Positions 24,707 to 62,303 of a stretch of 64,000 bases of DNA are shown piece by piece (positions within the stretch are counted from its first letter, which is position 1; each line of letters opens with the position of its first letter). Origin of the DNA: a virus; IMG/VR virus record IMGVR_UViG_3300044715_001611, positions 62,001 to 126,000 of that record. The stretch is one strand, 5' to 3'. Position numbers and translations under genes: made by a program. A model generated the notes under the pieces. It ran no database searches, was not told where the DNA came from, and saw nothing but the letters and a program-made list of their open reading frames with translations.

Positions 24707-27700
24707 ATGAGTGAAAAACTACAAAGCCCCACGCCCGCCCCTGGCGAAATTGAAATCGGCATGCCGACCAGCCTTGTCGCCCGCAATAAAAAGGTGGGGG
24801 ATCGGCTGCTGGTCGCCGGCGAGGGCAAAATCCCGGCCGAGATCATGTTCGTGGCTACGGCGGTGGATGAGGACGAGGCCGTGGACCATATCAAGGGCTC
24901 CTACGGGCGCACCATCCCTCAGCGCGCCCGGTATCTGAAGGGAGCCGCCGGATGCATCCTCTCGGACATCCTGGCCTCCATCGGCATTGACATCTACGAC
25001 CACTACTACACGGCGGTCATCAAATGGCTGCTGCCTCGACAGGATCGCAATCGCCCCAAGCAGACGCTCGTCGCGCAATCCATGCCCATCCTGCTGGACG
25101 AGATCAAACGGGTGCAGCCGAAGATCATAGTCACGTTCGGCAAGGTGGCATTCGATGCCGTGTTTCCGAACCGGATGAAATTCGACTCGGTGAGGGCGGG
25201 CTGGTTCTACTCCGAGCAGCACGAGGCCAAAATCTTTGTGATGCAGGATGTCAGGAAGCCGGTTTATGAGCCGGCGCAAATCGAGGCGTTCCGCATGGAG
25301 CTGCTGGAATTGCGCAAGATGCTGGATGAGACCAGGGGAATTGAAGTGGTCAAATCGCCGGAGGATTACCAAATCATCTCCACACCAGACCAATTGGTTG
25401 AGTTCACCAAAATGCTCGCCGGGGAGAAACAGCATCTCCTATCGGTGGACTGCGAGTTCGGCGGCAGGAATCACGTCGATGGGAGGCTGCGCTCGCTGCA
25501 AATGGAATGGACGCCAGGACGGGCACGCTATATCCGGCTGATGGATGACAAGCTGAACATTGCCTTCCCAGGGGGATACGAGGCTGCCGGTCAAATCCTC
25601 CAACCGCATTGCAATGACCCCAAGACCAAATACATCGGCTACCATATCTCCGCGGATTTGCCGTGGATGCATACGTGGTTGGGCTTGGACTGGTATCAAA
25701 AGGCAATGATCGATGTGGAAGGTGCGCAGCAGGTGCTCGATGAGAATGCCGAATTGGGATTGGAGAGGCTGGCGTTGCAATACACAGCACTGGGACGCTA
25801 CGACATCCCATTGGAGCTTTGGAAGTTGGATAATCGGGAGAAGGTCTCGGACGACCTGGGCTACCTGCTGATCCCGGACGAGATCCTCGTGCCCTACGCA
25901 TTAAAGGATGTGTCTGCGCCGATGATCGCCGCCCCACAGATCATCAAGCGCCTGATGTCCGACAAGACCTGGGAGTATTACCGGGACTACCGGCATCACC
26001 TCGTCACAGACATCTTCACGCAATTTGCTTTGCTGGGACTGCCAATTAATAAAGCTAAAATAGATATCCTCCGCGACCTCTACAGCTACGCGCGTGAGCT
26101 GCTGGAGAAGAAATTCATCCACGAGTTGCGGATTGAGTCCGGGCAATTGCTGCTGAAGGCGATGCTCTCCGCATCCAAGGACCCGAAATGCTTTGGCGTG
26201 TATCAGGAGATCCTGACCATGGCGGCTGAGGGCCATCACGTGGAGGCGGAGGCGCGGTTGAAGGAGTTCGTGATGCCTGATCTTGATCTGATCAAGCATA
26301 CGACATCCAAACAGGATTTTGAGATGGCAAAGGCCATGGCCGCGGAGACGGAGAAGAAAGTACTGCCGGCGCTGCATCATTTCCTGGAAGCCCCCAATTT
26401 CAATGTGCGGTCGGCGGACTGCAAGAAGCGGTGGCTGTTCGACGTCAAAGGCATGACGCCCGTAAAGACCACCAATCGCAAGGAGGCGGGGCTGCCATCA
26501 ATTCCATGGAGCCGCGTGCAGAATCTGCCGCCCCACATCGCGGCGCAATACGCCCCGGCCTGCGACAAGCAGACGCTCAAGATGCTGGCGGATGACACGC
26601 AGGATGCATTGCTGCGGCGGATGCTGGACATGCTCGCCGTGGGCAATATTGCGAAGTCATGCTTCAAGCAGCCGCAGGTGGATGAGTTTACGGGGGAGAT
26701 CGTGAAGGAGAATGGGTTGCACACCTGGATTGCGGGCGATGGGTACATCCATCCAAATAATTCTGTGACTGAAACGGGGCGTCCTCGGGGTTGGAAGCCA
26801 AACTACTTAAACTGGGCCAAATATATTCATAAAGGCGTGGCTCGGGGGATTGCTGAGGTATTGAAGGAGCAGCATGATATCGGCGAATTGCCCGAGAAAT
26901 TTCAAGTGTTCCTGGATCCAGATGCGATCCCAAGCGTGCGTAGTATTGTAGATGTTACGGAACTGCCTCCGCTCGAAGGGTCCGTTGGCTGGTGCTTTAG
27001 TGACAGCGATTTCGCTACGGCAGAAATTAGATCTATGGCGTTTTTGAGCGGGGATGAGAACCTGATCCGCTTGATGACGGAACCGGACGATCAGTTTGGG
27101 TTGGCAAAAGTGAAGGATAAAAAGCATTCGATTCGTTTGCGTTATGCTTCCGACTGCGGCATTGATGAAAAGAACTGGAGATCTGAATTCATTCTGACTT
27201 CAGCGACCAATGGAAAAATAGAGGCGCGTGTCTCGTGGGCTGAATTGCTGCGCAAAGATGGAAAGCTAATTCATCCGCCACATGATTTGCACTGGTCACT
27301 GGTGGAGTGGGTGCAAAACAATCCACGCGAACTGTTCGACGCCGAGATCGATCGCGGCGGCACGGGCAAGCCAGGGAATTTCTGCATCGCCGAAGATGAA
27401 CTCGTGCTGACCGGTCGCGGGTGGATAGCAATTCAGAATGTTCTTGGTTGCGATGTCCTATGGGACGGCGTAGCGTGGGTCCATCATGAAGGACTCAAAT
27501 ACAACGGAATTGCTGAAGTGCGAAACTACCAGGGATTGCGCGCGACCGACGGACACGAAGTTTGGGATCGAGACGGAAGAAAAATCTACTTCGGGCAGGC
27601 GCGCACACAACAAATTGAACTTGCCTCAATTGGTGGAGCGGGCCAAAAAATTGAATGTGCCTGGCCTGATAGTTTTCCCCGAAACGATTCACAGAACGGG

Positions 27701-28966
27701 GTCGGGATACTTTCACCTGATGACGCAATGCACTTTGTGCGGAAAACAACTGGAGAAAGAGATCCGGAATTTGGAGCAGGGTTTTTCCAGCAAGTGCCAT
27801 TGTCAGAGGCTGGGGGCGCGTGCGGCGTACGGCGTAGCGCGACCGTTGACGAAGACGCTCGGCACTCGATACAATGCGATGATGCAGCGCTGCTACAAAG
27901 ACACGCACGTGTCGTCGTACAATTACAAGATGCGCGGCATTCAAGTGTTGTTCAAATCTCGCCGGGATTTTGTGACGTGGGCGTTGGAGAAATGGCCGGA
28001 GGAGACATTCAAGAAAAAGGACTTCGACAGGATCGACAACGACGGACATTACTCGAAAGAGAATCTTCGGTTGGTGGATCGTCGGACGAATTTGTTGAAT
28101 CGGAGAAGACCCAAAGATGTGGACATTCAGACCGCACGGGACTTCATGGCACGGCATCCCGAGGTGAATTACACGGCGACCACGTGCTACGGGTTATTCC
28201 GGCTGGGCATGAGCGAGTATCAAATACTGGAACGCCACAGGAACAGCAGCAAGGCAGGGTGGAGAAAGTCAGGGTCTACGACATCATAAACGCGGGGCCG
28301 CGAAATAGGTTTGTGTGCTCCGGGATACTTGTGTCGAATTCCACCTCGTACGGAGCTACAGCGAGCACGCTGGATCGTCAAATCAAAGCCATCATTGGCA
28401 AGTCACCACCAGAAGGCACAGGGCAAGGTATTTTGGATGCCCTTCGACGCAGACAGCCCGTGGCGGTGGAATGGCTGGAGGCGCTTGCGGAAATACCAGG
28501 ATCACAATATCCGGAATACCAATTGGAGTCGGGGCAGAAGCGAAGGTTCCATGCCCACCGTTCATTTGTTCGAGGGATGGATGAAAGGACCAAGAACAGC
28601 ATCCTCTCCGGATTGAGCAGACAGGCGCGAAATTTTCCGAACCAAGCCATCGTGGCCGATACATCGACGAAAGCGGTGAAGAATCTGATGGCGTATTACC
28701 GGCAGTATGGATTTCGGTCCTACCCGCTGGTGATTTTATACGACTCCGTGGTGAGCTGTGGTCCCGTGGAAGAGCGGTTCCATGTGGCAGCGGCGCATCA
28801 GCGATTCATGACGACGGAAAACTGCTGGCATAACCACGGTAGGACTTGGAATTTTCCGATCGACACCGGCTTCACATTGGCGTGGGGATCGAAGCCCTCA
28901 GATGATATGAAAAAGAAACTCAACGACAAGACTTGGCACAGCGAGGCCCCATGGCTCAAGCTCTGA
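24707..28966 (+). CDS. Family A DNA polymerase with N-terminal UDG-like domain and an intein, 1419 aa precursor
   Basis: Domains in order. Residues ~1-205 resemble a uracil-DNA glycosylase fold (YTAVIKWLLP, RPKQTLVAQ, PKIIVTFGKVAFDA). A 3'-5' exonuclease follows, with SVDCEF (~246), SADLPW (~315) and YALKDVSA (~397). The polymerase has motif A DSDFATAEIR (~766), motif B GKPGNF/STSYGA (interrupted) and motif C LYDSVV (~1344; HD is replaced by YD). An intein of 319 residues lies between Phe892 and Ser1212. Excision would leave ~1100 residues, and splicing is needed because motif B binds the incoming dNTP. Start accaaATGAGT. It is probably the replicative polymerase; the UDG-like part could scan for uracil or be structural. 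Confidence 0.88.
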   Translation: MSEKLQSPTPAPGEIEIGMPTSLVARNKKVGDRLLVAGEGKIPAEIMFVATAVDEDEAVDHIKGSYGRTIPQRARYLKGAAGCILSDILASIGIDIYDHYYTAVIKWLLPRQDRNRPKQTLVAQSMPILLDEIKRVQPKIIVTFGKVAFDAVFPNRMKFDSVRAGWFYSEQHEAKIFVMQDVRKPVYEPAQIEAFRMELLELRKMLDETRGIEVVKSPEDYQIISTPDQLVEFTKMLAGEKQHLLSVDCEFGGRNHVDGRLRSLQMEWTPGRARYIRLMDDKLNIAFPGGYEAAGQILQPHCNDPKTKYIGYHISADLPWMHTWLGLDWYQKAMIDVEGAQQVLDENAELGLERLALQYTALGRYDIPLELWKLDNREKVSDDLGYLLIPDEILVPYALKDVSAPMIAAPQIIKRLMSDKTWEYYRDYRHHLVTDIFTQFALLGLPINKAKIDILRDLYSYARELLEKKFIHELRIESGQLLLKAMLSASKDPKCFGVYQEILTMAAEGHHVEAEARLKEFVMPDLDLIKHTTSKQDFEMAKAMAAETEKKVLPALHHFLEAPNFNVRSADCKKRWLFDVKGMTPVKTTNRKEAGLPSIPWSRVQNLPPHIAAQYAPACDKQTLKMLADDTQDALLRRMLDMLAVGNIAKSCFKQPQVDEFTGEIVKENGLHTWIAGDGYIHPNNSVTETGRPRGWKPNYLNWAKYIHKGVARGIAEVLKEQHDIGELPEKFQVFLDPDAIPSVRSIVDVTELPPLEGSVGWCFSDSDFATAEIRSMAFLSGDENLIRLMTEPDDQFGLAKVKDKKHSIRLRYASDCGIDEKNWRSEFILTSATNGKIEARVSWAELLRKDGKLIHPPHDLHWSLVEWVQNNPRELFDAEIDRGGTGKPGNFCIAEDELVLTGRGWIAIQNVLGCDVLWDGVAWVHHEGLKYNGIAEVRNYQGLRATDGHEVWDRDGRKIYFGQARTQQIELASIGGAGQKIECAWPDSFPRNDSQNGVGILSPDDAMHFVRKTTGERDPEFGAGFFQQVPLSEAGGACGVRRSATVDEDARHSIQCDDAALLQRHARVVVQLQDARHSSVVQISPGFCDVGVGEMAGGDIQEKGLRQDRQRRTLLERESSVGGSSDEFVESEKTQRCGHSDRTGLHGTASRGELHGDHVLRVIPAGHERVSNTGTPQEQQQGRVEKVRVYDIINAGPRNRFVCSGILVSNSTSYGATASTLDRQIKAIIGKSPPEGTGQGILDALRRRQPVAVEWLEALAEIPGSQYPEYQLESGQKRRFHAHRSFVRGMDERTKNSILSGLSRQARNFPNQAIVADTSTKAVKNLMAYYRQYGFRSYPLVILYDSVVSCGPVEERFHVAAAHQRFMTTENCWHNHGRTWNFPIDTGFTLAWGSKPSDDMKKKLNDKTWHSEAPWLKL
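27383..28339 (+). mobile_element. Intein in polymerase motif B, 319 aa
   Basis: The N-terminal splice junction is Cys (codon 27383) followed by a block A-like DELVLTGRGW. Block B is GLRATDGHEVW with the TxxH residues. The C-terminal blocks are VRVYDIINAGPRNRFV, then GILVSN, with Asn at the end and Ser (28340) as the +1 nucleophile. The usual penultimate His is Ser here, which some inteins tolerate. Only ~85 N-terminal and ~35 C-terminal residues look intein-like. The ~200 residues between them, read in the polymerase frame, are not protein-like and correspond to another gene in a different frame. Confidence 0.85.
27486..28289 (+). CDS. HNH-type homing endonuclease nested out of frame inside the intein, up to 267 aa
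   Basis: Read in a frame different from the polymerase/intein frame, this stretch encodes TRYNAMMQRCYKD and later KDFDRIDNDGHYSKENLR with NLLNRRR. That is the core of a common phage HNH-type endonuclease family. An upstream zinc-binding segment is present (TQCTLCGKQ, KCHCQRLG). The frame opens at ATG 27486, but the protein-like part begins near 27620, so the true start may be an internal TTG/GTG or Met. It ends at 28289, inside the intein C-terminal blocks. Both frames stay open for about 800 bases, so the DNA appears to be dual-coding. It probably drives intein homing. Confidence 0.8.
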   Translation: MKDSNTTELLKCETTRDCARPTDTKFGIETEEKSTSGRRAHNKLNLPQLVERAKKLNVPGLIVFPETIHRTGSGYFHLMTQCTLCGKQLEKEIRNLEQGFSSKCHCQRLGARAAYGVARPLTKTLGTRYNAMMQRCYKDTHVSSYNYKMRGIQVLFKSRRDFVTWALEKWPEETFKKKDFDRIDNDGHYSKENLRLVDRRTNLLNRRRPKDVDIQTARDFMARHPEVNYTATTCYGLFRLGMSEYQILERHRNSSKAGWRKSGSTTS

Positions 28967-40815: not shown

Positions 40816-41031
40816 ATGACCAATGCGCAAGGAATGATAATGCGGCGGGTGATCGCGGAGGGCGGCTCCTCACAAATCCGGCGCGGGTTCAAGACAATGA
40901 TCGAATGGGAGCAAGGCAGGAAGCTCTGTGATGAAGGGCTGTTGTCCATTGTCACGCTGGATGCCGCGCCCATGTGGTGGACGATCACGCCGGCGGGACG
41001 GAAAGCCTGCGAGGAATACGGATTGAGTTGA
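40816..41031 (+). CDS. Winged-helix-like small protein, 71 aa
   Basis: Start atcaaATGACC. Helix pattern followed by KLCDEGLLSIVTLDA and WWTITPAGRKACEEYG, which resembles the wing and C-terminal end of a winged-helix domain (the TPAGR element is typical). Possibly a small regulator acting before the structural block. Followed directly by a strong terminator. Confidence 0.55.
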   Translation: MTNAQGMIMRRVIAEGGSSQIRRGFKTMIEWEQGRKLCDEGLLSIVTLDAAPMWWTITPAGRKACEEYGLS

Positions 41032-41036
41032 GATTT

Positions 41037-41069
41037 GAAGGAGGGGCGAACGGGCGCCCCTCCTTCTTT
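41037..41069 (+). terminator. Strong intrinsic terminator before the structural block
   Basis: GAAGGAGGGGCG (41037-41048) and CGCCCCTCCTTC (41055-41066) form a perfect 12-bp stem around AACGGG, followed by TTTA. It separates the replication/recombination block from the RNA-polymerase-beta-like and structural genes. Confidence 0.85.
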
Positions 41070-41088
41070 ACCTGGCGCATCTTTTGGG

Positions 41089-41094
41089 TATGCT
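41089..41094 (+). promoter_or_regulatory. Possible -10 box TATGCT close to a start codon
   Basis: TATGCT ends 11 bases before the ATG at 41106, directly after the terminator. Similar TANNCT boxes lie 6-10 bases before the starts at 47352, 48523, 51445 and 53500. A transcript starting this close would be leaderless. The -35 region here is weak (TTTACC, 16 bases upstream). Confidence 0.4.
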
Positions 41095-41105
41095 GGTGGA
41101 CGCAA

Positions 41106-44100
41106 ATGCCAACGGACAATTCACCAATCACCCTGCCCACCGGCGTCGTCCTGCGCGCCCCGGAGGATTTCGACACCCTGCGCACCAGCATTTACGACAC
41201 CGCGAAGAAGGGCCTGGAATCCTCCTTTCCGACGTCCTACAACGGCGTGCGCATGGAATTGAAGGACGTGCATTACGCCGATCCGGATGACTTCCCGCTG
41301 GATGTGCAAAAGCAGGCCATGCTCACGGACAAATCCCTCGGCCGCCGGCTGCGGGGCTCCGTGCATCTCTACGATGACAATACCGGCGACCTGCTGGACA
41401 AGCGGGACATGACGCTGATGACGGTGCCGCATATGACTGAGCGGGGCACGTTCGTGAACGCGGGCAGTGACTACGCGCATGTAAATCAGGCCAGGCTCTT
41501 GCACGGCGCCTACAGCCGCCGGATGCAGAATGGCAACCTGAGCACTTCCGTGAACGCCAAGACCGGCACCGGTCCCGCCTTCCAGGTCGAGTTCGAGCCG
41601 ACGACGGCGCAATACCGGATGCACATCCGCGGCAGCAATCTGCATCTCTATTCCCTGCTCCATGACATCGGCATCCCCGATGAGCAATTGGAGAAGACCT
41701 GGGGCCCTGAGCTGCTGGATCGTAATCGAAAGAAATACGACGCGCGGGTCATTAGCAAAGCCTACGAGCATTTGGTCGCCCCCCGACACAAGCTGCCCGA
41801 GCACACACCCGAGGATCGCGTCAAAGCCATCCATACGGCATTGGACTCCGTGCGGGTGCACCGGGATGCCATCGGCAAAACGCTGCCGGTCCTGCTCGGC
41901 GGCAAATCAGCCACGGCATGGCGGGCGAAGATGAGCGTCCGGCAGGCCGACTTCGAAAAGGAAATCTTCGCCCCTTCAATTCCACCACATGAGGCAATGG
42001 GCATGGGATTTGAAATGGCGCACCCGGAGATCTTTTTTGAGGTCGCCGGGGATTGTGAAGTGCCGGTGTTTGAAAAGCTGGCCAGCGCCAAATCCGAATC
42101 CGAAGCCAAAGGCTTTGAACCCGACCTGGATGCCGATGGTATGCGCGAGGCCTACAATGCCGTGTATGCCAAGGCAGGCCCGCGGCTGGCAGGCATGAAG
42201 CAATGGCCGAAGCACTGGTTTACGGACGAGGGCGATCCGCTCGGCTGGATTTCGTGGTATTGTCGATACGCCGATGGAGCGCGCGGTCCGGACGACGAGC
42301 GTCAAATCAACCGCTGGAAATCCTTCAAGGCGCGCAGCGTGCCACGCTTCATCAAGAACCCCACAGCCCGGCAGGCATTTGCGCTGCGGTATTGGGCAAT
42401 CGACCCGCTGCCGCTGATTACGGATGCCGATGCACGGAAGCAATTGAAGGAGGACATGAAGGAGCACCAGGCGGCGGAGATGCGGAAGTTCTCGGAGCGG
42501 GCGTGTGATGATTATCCCAAATTGGAGCGTGAGAAGGAGGCCAGTGTGTTGGCGGTTGGTGTTGTCCCTCCGCCCAGAGACCTACCCGAATGGCAACTCG
42601 GCCTCATCAAATACGCACGGGCAAATGCGCCCAAGGATCCGGAGAAGCCCAATCCTGAATACAAGGGATGCCTGATGGCCCGACTGCAATTGTCCGACGC
42701 GAAGAAGATCATCGAATGGGCCGAGGAGAACATCCCGGAAGATCAATTGGCGGAGGACGGATTTGAACGCGAAATTCACTGTACAGCCCTATTCGGGATC
42801 CATCAAAGCGTCACGAAGGAGCTGCTCGAATCCGCCGTGAAGGAAATCATGAAGGACGCCGGCGGTTCGCTGATCCTGCAATTGAAGGAGATCCATCGGT
42901 TTCCTGCCAGCGAGCATCGCAACAGCGACGTCATTGTCCTGAAGTGCGAGTCGCCGTGGCTGGAGGAATTGCACTACGGGCTGATCGAGAAGCTGGGGGA
43001 CAAGGTGCAGGTCACGTATCCTGATTACACCCCACATGTCACCGTGGCATACGTTAAGCCCGGAGCATTGAAGCATCTCGATGACAGCCAGGTGTTCGAT
43101 GGGCAATTGCTGCCGCTGAGTCCTTTGATTTACTCGATTGCGGATCGCACTGCGAAACATGAAATTGAGATGTTCGATTCCAAGATGGAAAAGGACGCAG
43201 CGGAAGTTCCAATGTTTGGGGATCAGCCGGCCCATGAGGTCGTCAGTCCCGGCGGGGCTCGCTCATCTCATCAATTCACGACCAGCAGCGGGTCTCGTTA
43301 TATCATGGGCGAGGATGGTTCTTCCCGCAGAATTAAGTCCTTCCATGCCAACACAGGTGGGGCAGATGTAGGCTTGAAACCGTGGCAGGAGAACATCCGA
43401 TTTGTAGACCCGAAGAATCCTCATTTTTCTACAGACGTCGGGCGACTTCAAGAGTTGGGGCATCACGTGCATCTGGCCCCAAGTGGCGAACAAATGGGTG
43501 TGAATATTTATGACCAGGCCGCGCAGAAGTGGAGGCCTGCTACTATTGCAGATGCGAGACCGAAGGCTGTCGCGGCCGGAATCCTCAAAGGCGGAGAGGC
43601 ACCGCTGCGCGCGGGGATATCGGCAATCCCACAGCCAGGATCGCACGTGCTGGAGTGGAACAATCATTCCGACGGGCGCCTAAAGAGCGTACACCCCGGC
43701 AGCCCGGTTGCACAGACGGAGTGGGCAAGGCCGCCTGCGGCGACCACAACCCCAGCCACCCCAGCCCCAGCGCCTGCGTCAGCCGCCGCCCCAGCCGCCG
43801 CCCCAGCCGCCGCCAATGCCGTCACGGCCACCAAAGCGGTAGCTCCAATTGCGCCAGCCGCCTCAGCCGCCCCAACCGGCCTCAAACCTCTTGCGGCTCT
43901 AAAGGGTACTGCTGGCGCTCTCGATGGGGGTGCGGTGAGGGCGGCAGGTCGGGCCTTGGGAACTGGTGTAAAGATTGTTGGTGCGGTTGCCAGGCCCTTG
44001 TCTGCCATCACCACAGTAAATGACCTTTATCAATCAGCGACGAATCCTAGAGGTGCTGCAAAAGATTTTAATGACAATTGGAATAAGGCAGGCCCGATCG

Positions 44101-45179
44101 GCCGTACGCTGTCCGTGATCGGCAGTCCAATTGCAGCGCTGAATGCGCAGGCTGAGAATCACGAGGAGAATCGGGACCGGCTGCAAGACGCCCAACGTAG
44201 AAGCTCAATTCTTCCGATTCATCCACCGGACCCGGTATTCCCTCGACCTACGCAGCAATCAGATCCAAGAGCATTAACCCCGAGACCCCGCCCAGCACCG
44301 ACGCCAGCACCGACGCCAGCACCGACGCCAGCCGTCCCCCCGGCACCCAAACCCACAACTCCGACCGGTTCTGGTTTTGTAGGGGCGCCACCCATTCCCA
44401 AACCTCCAGCGCCAGAACCCATCATGGCCGGGGGTCTCAGCAAGACCACCACGCCGTCGATCGGCAAGATCGCCGCTGCCCAGCAAGGCTGGCCTCCAGT
44501 CGCTATACAGGAACTTCAGGCACGCTTCGCCGCTGACCAGAAAGCACGCGCGGGTGTCAATCCAACCACCATGACTGCAGAAGCCGCACAACAGACGGAA
44601 TCGGGCATGGCGAAAACGGATCGCGACAACACGGCATGGCTTCAATCCAACATCGGAAAATACGGCTGGCCCACTGGCGCCCCCGCGAATCAGGCTTGGT
44701 TGCTGGCACAGCATGCGGATCACGATCCGAAGTTTCAGGCCGTCGTGTTGGAGAAGATGCAGGCTGTGTCGAAGAATCTCCAACATCCGGAGCATCTGTC
44801 CAACGTGGCGTATCTGACGGACCGAGTGGCCGTGAATAATAAACAACCGCAGCTTTACGGCACGCAACTGAATCATCAGTGGGATCCCGTGAAAAACACA
44901 TTTTCGAATCCGACACCGCACCCAATTAGCGATGCCGCAAACTTGGATGCGCGACGTAAGTCCATGGGGATGGGACCGCACGTCGATTATTTGAAAACGC
45001 GTGCACCTGCCGCACCCGCCCCTACTCCCACGCCACAGCCCGCAGCACCGCCAGCTTCTGCACCGCCGCCGACACCCAGCGGGACAGTACCGAAAGCGCC
45101 CACCGCTCCCATGTCGTCAATTAAGGGTGTGCCGGGTGCAGTAAAATCCGCAGCCGCAAATGCAGAGGATTCCAAATGA
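41106..45179 (+). CDS. RNA polymerase beta-subunit N-terminal lobe fused to other enzyme-like domains, 1357 aa
   Basis: Residues ~1-240 match the start of RpoB: RRLRGSVHLYDDNTGDLLD, then VPHMTERGTFVNAGSDY and NQARLLHGAY, equivalent to MT..GTF.ING.ERV..SQ in bacterial beta. It then leaves the beta sequence. Residues ~366-405 (WPKHWFTD, GWISWYCRYADG, DDERQINRW) match a WYCRY-type domain I recall from other phage proteins. At ~480-680 there is a 2H phosphoesterase-like domain with HCT (~558) and HVT (~644). Ala/Pro linkers and a Gly/Ala helix follow. Residues ~1170-1295 (LLAQHADHD, AYLTDRV, YGTQLNHQW) resemble DUF6624. The start is ATG 41106. The stop overlaps the next gene, which continues the beta homology. 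Confidence 0.75.
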   Translation: MPTDNSPITLPTGVVLRAPEDFDTLRTSIYDTAKKGLESSFPTSYNGVRMELKDVHYADPDDFPLDVQKQAMLTDKSLGRRLRGSVHLYDDNTGDLLDKRDMTLMTVPHMTERGTFVNAGSDYAHVNQARLLHGAYSRRMQNGNLSTSVNAKTGTGPAFQVEFEPTTAQYRMHIRGSNLHLYSLLHDIGIPDEQLEKTWGPELLDRNRKKYDARVISKAYEHLVAPRHKLPEHTPEDRVKAIHTALDSVRVHRDAIGKTLPVLLGGKSATAWRAKMSVRQADFEKEIFAPSIPPHEAMGMGFEMAHPEIFFEVAGDCEVPVFEKLASAKSESEAKGFEPDLDADGMREAYNAVYAKAGPRLAGMKQWPKHWFTDEGDPLGWISWYCRYADGARGPDDERQINRWKSFKARSVPRFIKNPTARQAFALRYWAIDPLPLITDADARKQLKEDMKEHQAAEMRKFSERACDDYPKLEREKEASVLAVGVVPPPRDLPEWQLGLIKYARANAPKDPEKPNPEYKGCLMARLQLSDAKKIIEWAEENIPEDQLAEDGFEREIHCTALFGIHQSVTKELLESAVKEIMKDAGGSLILQLKEIHRFPASEHRNSDVIVLKCESPWLEELHYGLIEKLGDKVQVTYPDYTPHVTVAYVKPGALKHLDDSQVFDGQLLPLSPLIYSIADRTAKHEIEMFDSKMEKDAAEVPMFGDQPAHEVVSPGGARSSHQFTTSSGSRYIMGEDGSSRRIKSFHANTGGADVGLKPWQENIRFVDPKNPHFSTDVGRLQELGHHVHLAPSGEQMGVNIYDQAAQKWRPATIADARPKAVAAGILKGGEAPLRAGISAIPQPGSHVLEWNNHSDGRLKSVHPGSPVAQTEWARPPAATTTPATPAPAPASAAAPAAAPAAANAVTATKAVAPIAPAASAAPTGLKPLAALKGTAGALDGGAVRAAGRALGTGVKIVGAVARPLSAITTVNDLYQSATNPRGAAKDFNDNWNKAGPIGRTLSVIGSPIAALNAQAENHEENRDRLQDAQRRSSILPIHPPDPVFPRPTQQSDPRALTPRPRPAPTPAPTPAPTPAVPPAPKPTTPTGSGFVGAPPIPKPPAPEPIMAGGLSKTTTPSIGKIAAAQQGWPPVAIQELQARFAADQKARAGVNPTTMTAEAAQQTESGMAKTDRDNTAWLQSNIGKYGWPTGAPANQAWLLAQHADHDPKFQAVVLEKMQAVSKNLQHPEHLSNVAYLTDRVAVNNKQPQLYGTQLNHQWDPVKNTFSNPTPHPISDAANLDARRKSMGMGPHVDYLKTRAPAAPAPTPTPQPAAPPASAPPPTPSGTVPKAPTAPMSSIKGVPGAVKSAAANAEDSK

Positions 45180-61881: not shown

Positions 61882-62303
61882 TGCCTGTCGCGCCGGAAGA
61901 AGGAGCGACTGGAAATCCCCTAGCGTCCAAGTTCCTCTACCGCTACGAGGCAGCGCGCGGAAGCATCACCTACGTGCAGGTGGTGCTGAGGAGATACAGG
62001 GTGAGCAAGGAGACGCCTTCTGGATATTGGATTCAGCACCCCGATGGTTACCCATGGGAGGATCGTCAAAAGTTCATCCTGAAATGCGGCGGAGGATCCA
62101 AGAAACGATTCGCGTATGAAGATCCGGATCGCGCATGGCAGTCTTGGAAATCTAGGAAGCATCACCACATCAACCACCTCACCAACCAATTGCGCCGCGC
62201 CCAGTTGCTGAATGAAATCGAGAGGCCCGAGTTCCCGAAGGATTCAGCCGAGGTGCTGGATGGGGACGATGCGGGAATACTGAAACCAAAAGAAAATGAG
62301 TAA
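61881..62303 (+). CDS. Conserved phage-type protein, 140 aa
   Basis: ATG 61881 overlaps the Nudix stop by one base. Contains YRYEAARGS, LRRYRVSKETPSGYWI and KKRFAYEDPDRAWQSW, a pattern I recall from phage proteins of unknown function (RYEA...ET..GYWI...KR.AY). Basic middle, acidic C-terminus. Confidence 0.6.
   Translation: MPVAPEEGATGNPLASKFLYRYEAARGSITYVQVVLRRYRVSKETPSGYWIQHPDGYPWEDRQKFILKCGGGSKKRFAYEDPDRAWQSWKSRKHHHINHLTNQLRRAQLLNEIERPEFPKDSAEVLDGDDAGILKPKENE

Follow-up and report, generated by a model that had tools for sequence, protein, structure and literature searches.

A 64,000-nucleotide stretch (the window; positions 62,001 to 126,000 of the 185.7-kb virus record IMGVR_UViG_3300044715_001611 in IMG/VR) contains a DNA polymerase A (PolA) gene with an intein, and within this intein lies a second reading frame that encodes an HNH endonuclease. 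The PolA gene (positions 24707 to 28966; like all features of this locus, on the plus strand) is open throughout its 1419 codons and encodes a precursor with uracil-DNA-glycosylase (UDG)-like and 3'-5' exonuclease domains upstream. This single open reading frame (ORF) carries the intein uninterrupted through both exteins.

The intein (27383 to 28339, 319 aa) is in the polymerase frame and interrupts motif B of PolA (GKPGNF^C ... LVSN^STSYG), as identified from its splicing blocks, an alignment and its predicted Hint fold; its boundaries read GKPGNF^CIAEDELVLT and VYDIINAGPRNRFVCSGILVSN^STSYG. The N-terminal splicing half (27383 to 27622, residues 1 to 80) consists of block A, CIAEDELVLT, and block B, in which TDGH fits the TxxH pattern (T55-x-x-H58). 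Cys1, T55 and H58 were invariant in an alignment of 30 inteins. The C-terminal splicing half (28253 to 28339, residues 291 to 319) comprises blocks F and G, from VYDIINAGPRNRF (block F) to LVSN, and ends in N319, with Ser as the +1 residue. The linker between the halves (27623 to 28252) is the HNH gene read in the wrong frame; it is free of stops, predicted to be mostly disordered and not conserved as a protein.

The HNH ORF (27486 to 28289), which encodes 267 aa in the +1 frame relative to PolA, does not extend beyond the intein at either end. It matched two HNH endonuclease families of PHROG, family 374 (E 3.6e-21) and family 3377 (E 3e-19). Its folded core (residues ~41 to 250, 27606 to 28235) contains a zinc-ribbon-like CTLCGK..KCHC pattern (C82, C85, C104, C106) and the motif DRIDNDGHYSKEN. 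The Pfam search gave no match for the HNH protein, and neither frame of the insert was recognized by Pfam and NCBIfam; the HNH assignment is based on the PHROG profiles and the motifs.

The AlphaFold predictions for the two frames were complementary. In the intein frame, residues 1 to 80 and 291 to 319 were predicted with a pLDDT of at least 92, while most of the ~200-residue linker was below 50. The best Foldseek matches of this model were the NpuDnaE and Ssp DnaB inteins (probability 1.00, E 0.004 to 0.005), with NpuDnaE at the top. In the HNH frame, confidence was high for residues ~41 to 250 but not for residues 1 to 40 and 257 to 267, which overlap the splicing halves. The predicted fold thus changes from one frame to the other at ~27606 to 27622 and back at 28235 to 28253, in agreement with the positions ~27620 and ~28235 named in the original prediction, which had been made from the DNA sequence of the window. 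Its description of a cis-splicing type of intein whose own HNH gene, read in the wrong frame, forms the linker was likewise upheld.

Stop avoidance and selection in the two frames

The openness of the intein frame was compared with chance over the 227 codons under the HNH gene (27579 to 28259). When the HNH codons were shuffled synonymously, the intein frame acquired 8.85 stops on average, and none of the 20,000 shuffled sequences was stop-free. Recoding with the codon usage of PolA gave a similar expectation (8.88 stops; 0 of 5,000 stop-free). Among 60 non-redundant inteins of the same family, the intein frame under the HNH gene contained no stop, compared with about 347 expected, so that the frame is not routinely closed in homologues. 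The third frame of these inteins had 704 stops, compared with 701 expected. As a further control, 103 free-standing HNH genes had 754 and 1507 stops in the same two frames (740 and 1620 expected, respectively), and only 1 and 2 of them, respectively, had a stop-free reading. The codon shuffles, the third frame and the free-standing genes together rule out that the intein frame is open by chance. A natural control is provided by the single split case, L080, in which cis splicing is no longer required and the N-intein frame under the HNH gene is closed by 33 stops. Together with the ORFs, the splicing blocks and the PHROG matches, the shuffles confirm the core of the original prediction, namely an HNH gene in another frame inside a PolA intein whose own frame remains stop-free.

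Conservation differed between the frames. Amino acid identity between homologues was 0.44 to 0.49 in the HNH frame and 0.23 to 0.25 in the intein frame, compared with 0.23 in the unused third frame. Identities at the three codon positions of the HNH frame were 0.54 to 0.58, 0.61 to 0.64 and 0.36, i.e., the variation was concentrated at HNH third positions. Where it could be calculated, pairwise omega (dN/dS) was 0.05 to 0.22 in the HNH frame and 0.9 to 2.4 in the intein frame beneath it. These results indicate that the HNH frame is selected as a protein and that the intein frame is selected only for openness; the linker is under no constraint at the protein level, which fits the earlier remark that its translation is not protein-like. 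In the splicing halves, omega was 0.03 to 0.34 where calculable, and one pair with identical C blocks gave 0.

The same comparisons bear on whether the HNH frame in the window is a remnant that is no longer expressed, with the intein alone being of importance. Such decay does occur in relatives, one of which (L006) has a stop in its HNH frame with an open intein and another (L011) only HNH fragments. In the window, however, 267 intact codons with conserved motifs remain, the HNH fold is predicted with high confidence, and the HNH frame shows a pN of 0.32 and a pS of 0.80 against the homologous gene of a divergent phage contig, L004. A remnant is therefore considered very unlikely.

The constraint on the splicing halves is also relevant to the nature of the insert. 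Phage group I introns commonly carry HNH genes, and the GenBank record of a relative, Sodalis phage SO-1, is annotated as a type I self-splicing intron, so that the insert might be an intron of group I or another self-splicing type that is excised from the RNA, in which case the open polymerase frame would be incidental. However, no Rfam intron match was detected in the window insert at E ≤ 1, and none in SO-1 and five further relatives. An RNA intron would have no need of an open frame, and neither the low omega of the conserved Hint blocks nor the predicted Hint fold is accounted for by it. This explanation is extremely improbable.

Relatives, empty sites and derived forms

The contig L004, whose HNH protein is ~50% identical to that of the window, contains the same intein at the same site with the same +1 HNH gene, and the ATG at 27486 has its homologous counterpart there. 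This bears directly on a possible artefact, in which indels introduced near 27620 and 28235 during sequencing or assembly displaced the endonuclease of an ordinary intein from its frame. Both frame changeovers are at positions where indels would be plausible, and one public record, that of phage SS3e (L018/L105), does have a broken frame. However, L004 and dozens of independent genomes share the arrangement, none of them has the HNH in frame, and chance is far from accounting for the lack of stops in the intein frame. Since independent homologues have the same frames, compensating indels are refuted as an explanation and retain practically no probability.

In a survey with HNH alignments against viral contigs, supplemented with annotated phages, 71 places were found in which a single open frame contained both splicing halves and an HNH gene lay between them. 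The HNH gene was in the +1 frame in 36 of these and in the +2 frame in 35, and it was never in frame. The window was counted twice among these 71. Because both splicing halves had to be in one ORF, the two copies of SS3e, with its broken frame, the split L080 and L126 were left out; L126 had no C-block match, although it was open when checked by eye. The window's own record (L005) was excluded as a duplicate. A second survey, based on the N-terminal splicing block alone, gave 54 inteins with the HNH in +1, 11 with the HNH in +2 and 18 mini-inteins without an HNH; there were no HNHs in frame and no long inteins lacking an HNH. Two places without a C block, whose N block was near the end of the retrieved stretch, were dropped. 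Bacterial genomes contributed 25 further places, all +1 and none in frame. A nested out-of-frame HNH is thus the rule throughout a large phage intein family; the arrangement, which had been taken for an isolated case, is far more general, with dozens of examples in phages and prophages.

The family was found in ~166 phage records, mostly of Jerseyvirus infecting Salmonella; it also includes Dhillonvirus, APSE-1 of Hamiltonella, and phages of Streptococcus, Gardnerella, Caulobacter, Shewanella and Vibrio. The inteins occupy more than 20 sites; most are in PolA and, to judge from the flanking motifs, some appear to be in other genes, helicase-like ones among them. Five loci (L114, L192, L198, L202 and L259) contained two inteins of the family, located in the same ORF in all but L114, and the two sometimes differed in frame class. 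The PolA intein frame of SS3e is broken while those of its close Jerseyvirus relatives are intact, possibly owing to a sequencing error.

The same architecture was found by frame analysis in APSE-1 (P45/P46), SO-1 (gp38/gp39) and the gp37 intein of Salmonella phage Ent1. The records of these phages annotate fragments of it, i.e., the nested HNH in APSE-1 and SO-1, an 'intron' in SO-1 and, in Ent1, an intein comprising nothing but splicing domains. For SO-1 (L016, NC_013600), the splicing blocks together with the Rfam result point instead to an intein whose HNH is out of frame.

In a tree of 194 HNHs, the +2 inteins formed one group (support 77), and most +1 inteins, including that of the window, fell in another. 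A third group, also +1 (APSE-1, Caulobacter and Shewanella types; support 98), was placed among free-standing HNHs. The tree is a quick one with some weakly supported nodes; its topology suggests that the HNH was captured at least two, and probably three, independent times. Shared by two frame classes and by recurrent captures of this kind, the arrangement is a stable design, and the idea that it is an intermediate in the gain or loss of endonucleases was not borne out. A preference for out-of-frame over in-frame insertion was also considered and dropped; with only two or three captures, all of them would be out of frame by chance with a probability of (2/3)^3 = 0.30, and no such preference is claimed.

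Precise intein-less alleles of polA were present in Jerseyvirus. Phage skrot, which lacks the 897-base intein of phage Ent1, was 96% identical to Ent1 over exactly the 1404 flanking bp (2301 − 897), and such exact empty alleles are the pattern that would be expected from homing.

Several relatives represent altered states. The inteins of two Streptococcus prophages are nearly identical, and the HNH frame has a stop in one (L006:4231) and is intact in the other (L009); the intein frame is open in both. The 168-aa intein at L011:3501-4004 has a linker that is the wrong-frame remnant of an HNH gene after an internal deletion. In L080:3104-6078, the system is split: an ORF with the N-terminal half of PolA and intein-N is followed by the HNH gene and then by an ORF with intein-C and the C-terminal half of PolA. 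The HNH ORF of L080 (4743 to 5450) overlaps the end of the N-terminal ORF in another frame, and the C-terminal ORF is in the third frame. The mini-inteins have lost the HNH, and the mini, internally deleted and split forms are derived states. L080 illustrates a possible route from a cis-splicing to a split intein.

Interpretation and relation to known systems

What is observed is that there are two frames, that stops are avoided, that conservation is specific to the frame, that the predicted folds complement each other, that the arrangement recurs in many phages and that relatives have exact empty sites. On this basis, the element in the window is very probably a mobile intein that splices in cis and carries its homing endonuclease as an overprinted gene in another frame. 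The splicing itself, the initiation of the HNH, cleavage and homing are the steps that we infer. Translation in the polymerase frame would yield a PolA precursor in which the Hint halves are joined by the disordered linker; the Hint halves would then splice out, with ligation of the exteins. From the same mRNA, the HNH protein would be produced in the +1 frame, most likely via internal initiation within the N-terminal splicing half, and it would cut intein-less polA alleles, resulting in homing. The nucleotides under the HNH gene would be selected for the HNH protein, and the intein frame solely against stops.

Alternatively, the HNH might be made as a fusion with the N-terminal half of the intein by programmed ribosomal frameshifting rather than from its own start codon. 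The frame changes just past block B, and the Shine-Dalgarno sequence at the window start is poor, as such a mechanism would allow. However, many relatives have their own ATG and a good Shine-Dalgarno sequence, built from intein codons, at fixed positions in the intein (nt 145 in the +1 class, AAGGAGGT, from K-E-V codons; nt 92/98 in the +2 class), and the +1 and +2 classes would require opposite shifts. Frameshifting is for these reasons regarded as unlikely, and internal initiation is preferred.

Some results weigh against an overprinted homing intein as set out above. The Shine-Dalgarno sequence of the window HNH start (ATG 27486) is weak, at -4.1 kcal/mol compared with -6.8 for the recoding null. 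In the family, the Shine-Dalgarno sequence was better than the recoding null in 28 of 60 inteins at ≤0.05, and strong Shine-Dalgarno/ATG pairs at intein +145 nt were present in 7 of 14 mini-inteins without an HNH (with the ATG) and in 40 of 75 inteins with a +1 HNH. Because the pairs are similarly frequent in mini-inteins, they are no proof of selection for HNH translation. The use of an intein-codon Shine-Dalgarno sequence as a signature of such translation was dropped, as it was equally frequent in mini-inteins and absent in the window. Fold and profile searches against the PDB tied the HNH to no solved nuclease, and the search found no intein-less allele or relative of the window's own polymerase. 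The penultimate intein residue is Ser318 (LVSN) rather than His, a variant that is common within this intein family; a penultimate His is not strictly needed among known inteins.

Taken more broadly, it appears somewhat probable that a large, unrecognized class of phage inteins overprints its homing endonuclease. According to this single, wider claim, the HNH would have been captured two or three times and never in frame, the inteins concerned occupying more than 20 sites in polymerase and other genes, with an open but meaningless frame kept by selection; intein codons may double as a ribosome-binding site, and closure of the frame could yield a split intein with the endonuclease between its halves, as in L080.

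Classical bifunctional inteins normally contain the endonuclease as a domain of their own polypeptide, encoded in frame. The window intein resembles these in its Hint halves, in the position of the endonuclease between blocks B and F and in its insertion at a conserved motif, but its endonuclease is a separate +1-frame protein, and it is out of frame in all relatives examined. In the 'fractured genes' of Dassa et al. 2009, a free-standing endonuclease gene is reported to separate the two halves of a split intein, the endonucleases reportedly being of a different family. A separate endonuclease encoded between intein halves is shared with these, and L080 is exactly such a case with the present HNH family. 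In the window, unlike in the fractured genes, the intein is one uninterrupted ORF that the HNH overlaps.

The closest published parallel is the out-of-frame HNH of the ShiLan domain and the Pacc40 insertion, both found in DNA methylases of phages (Arsenault, Gosselin and Gogarten 2025, PMC11855218). The inserts were reported to be without intein splicing motifs and are thought to be retained in the protein, and the mode of translation was left open (PMC11855218). The window HNH is similar to these in being in a different frame from its host gene, in the stop-free host frame and in the sporadic distribution of its family, which suggests homing. It differs in being flanked by full splicing halves, as part of a cis-splicing type of intein, and the hosts of its family are mostly polymerases. 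No published description of an intein with an out-of-frame endonuclease was found in a search that covered subscription papers and InBase poorly, so that earlier notice is possible.

While inteins are the textbook fusion of splicing and endonuclease activities in one polypeptide, the family described here splits the two by reading frame. As a natural case of overlapping coding, it is unusually clean: one frame is real and the other merely tolerated, kept open by selection on splicing alone. The family suggests a route by which an endonuclease could be gained without disturbing splicing and lost via in-frame deletion to mini-inteins, as well as an origin for split inteins. Most endonucleases of this family are missed or misnamed in current annotation.

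Two minor observations were made in the window. In the PolA protein, the UDG-like domain is N-terminal to the exonuclease and polymerase parts (Pfam UDG, E 4.6e-9); it also matched TIGR00758 with an E value of 3.1e-12, under the curated NCBIfam cut-off. Elsewhere, at positions 40974 to 45179, a 1401-aa protein with no other match contains an RNA-ligase-like stretch (PHROG 755, E 4.2e-9).
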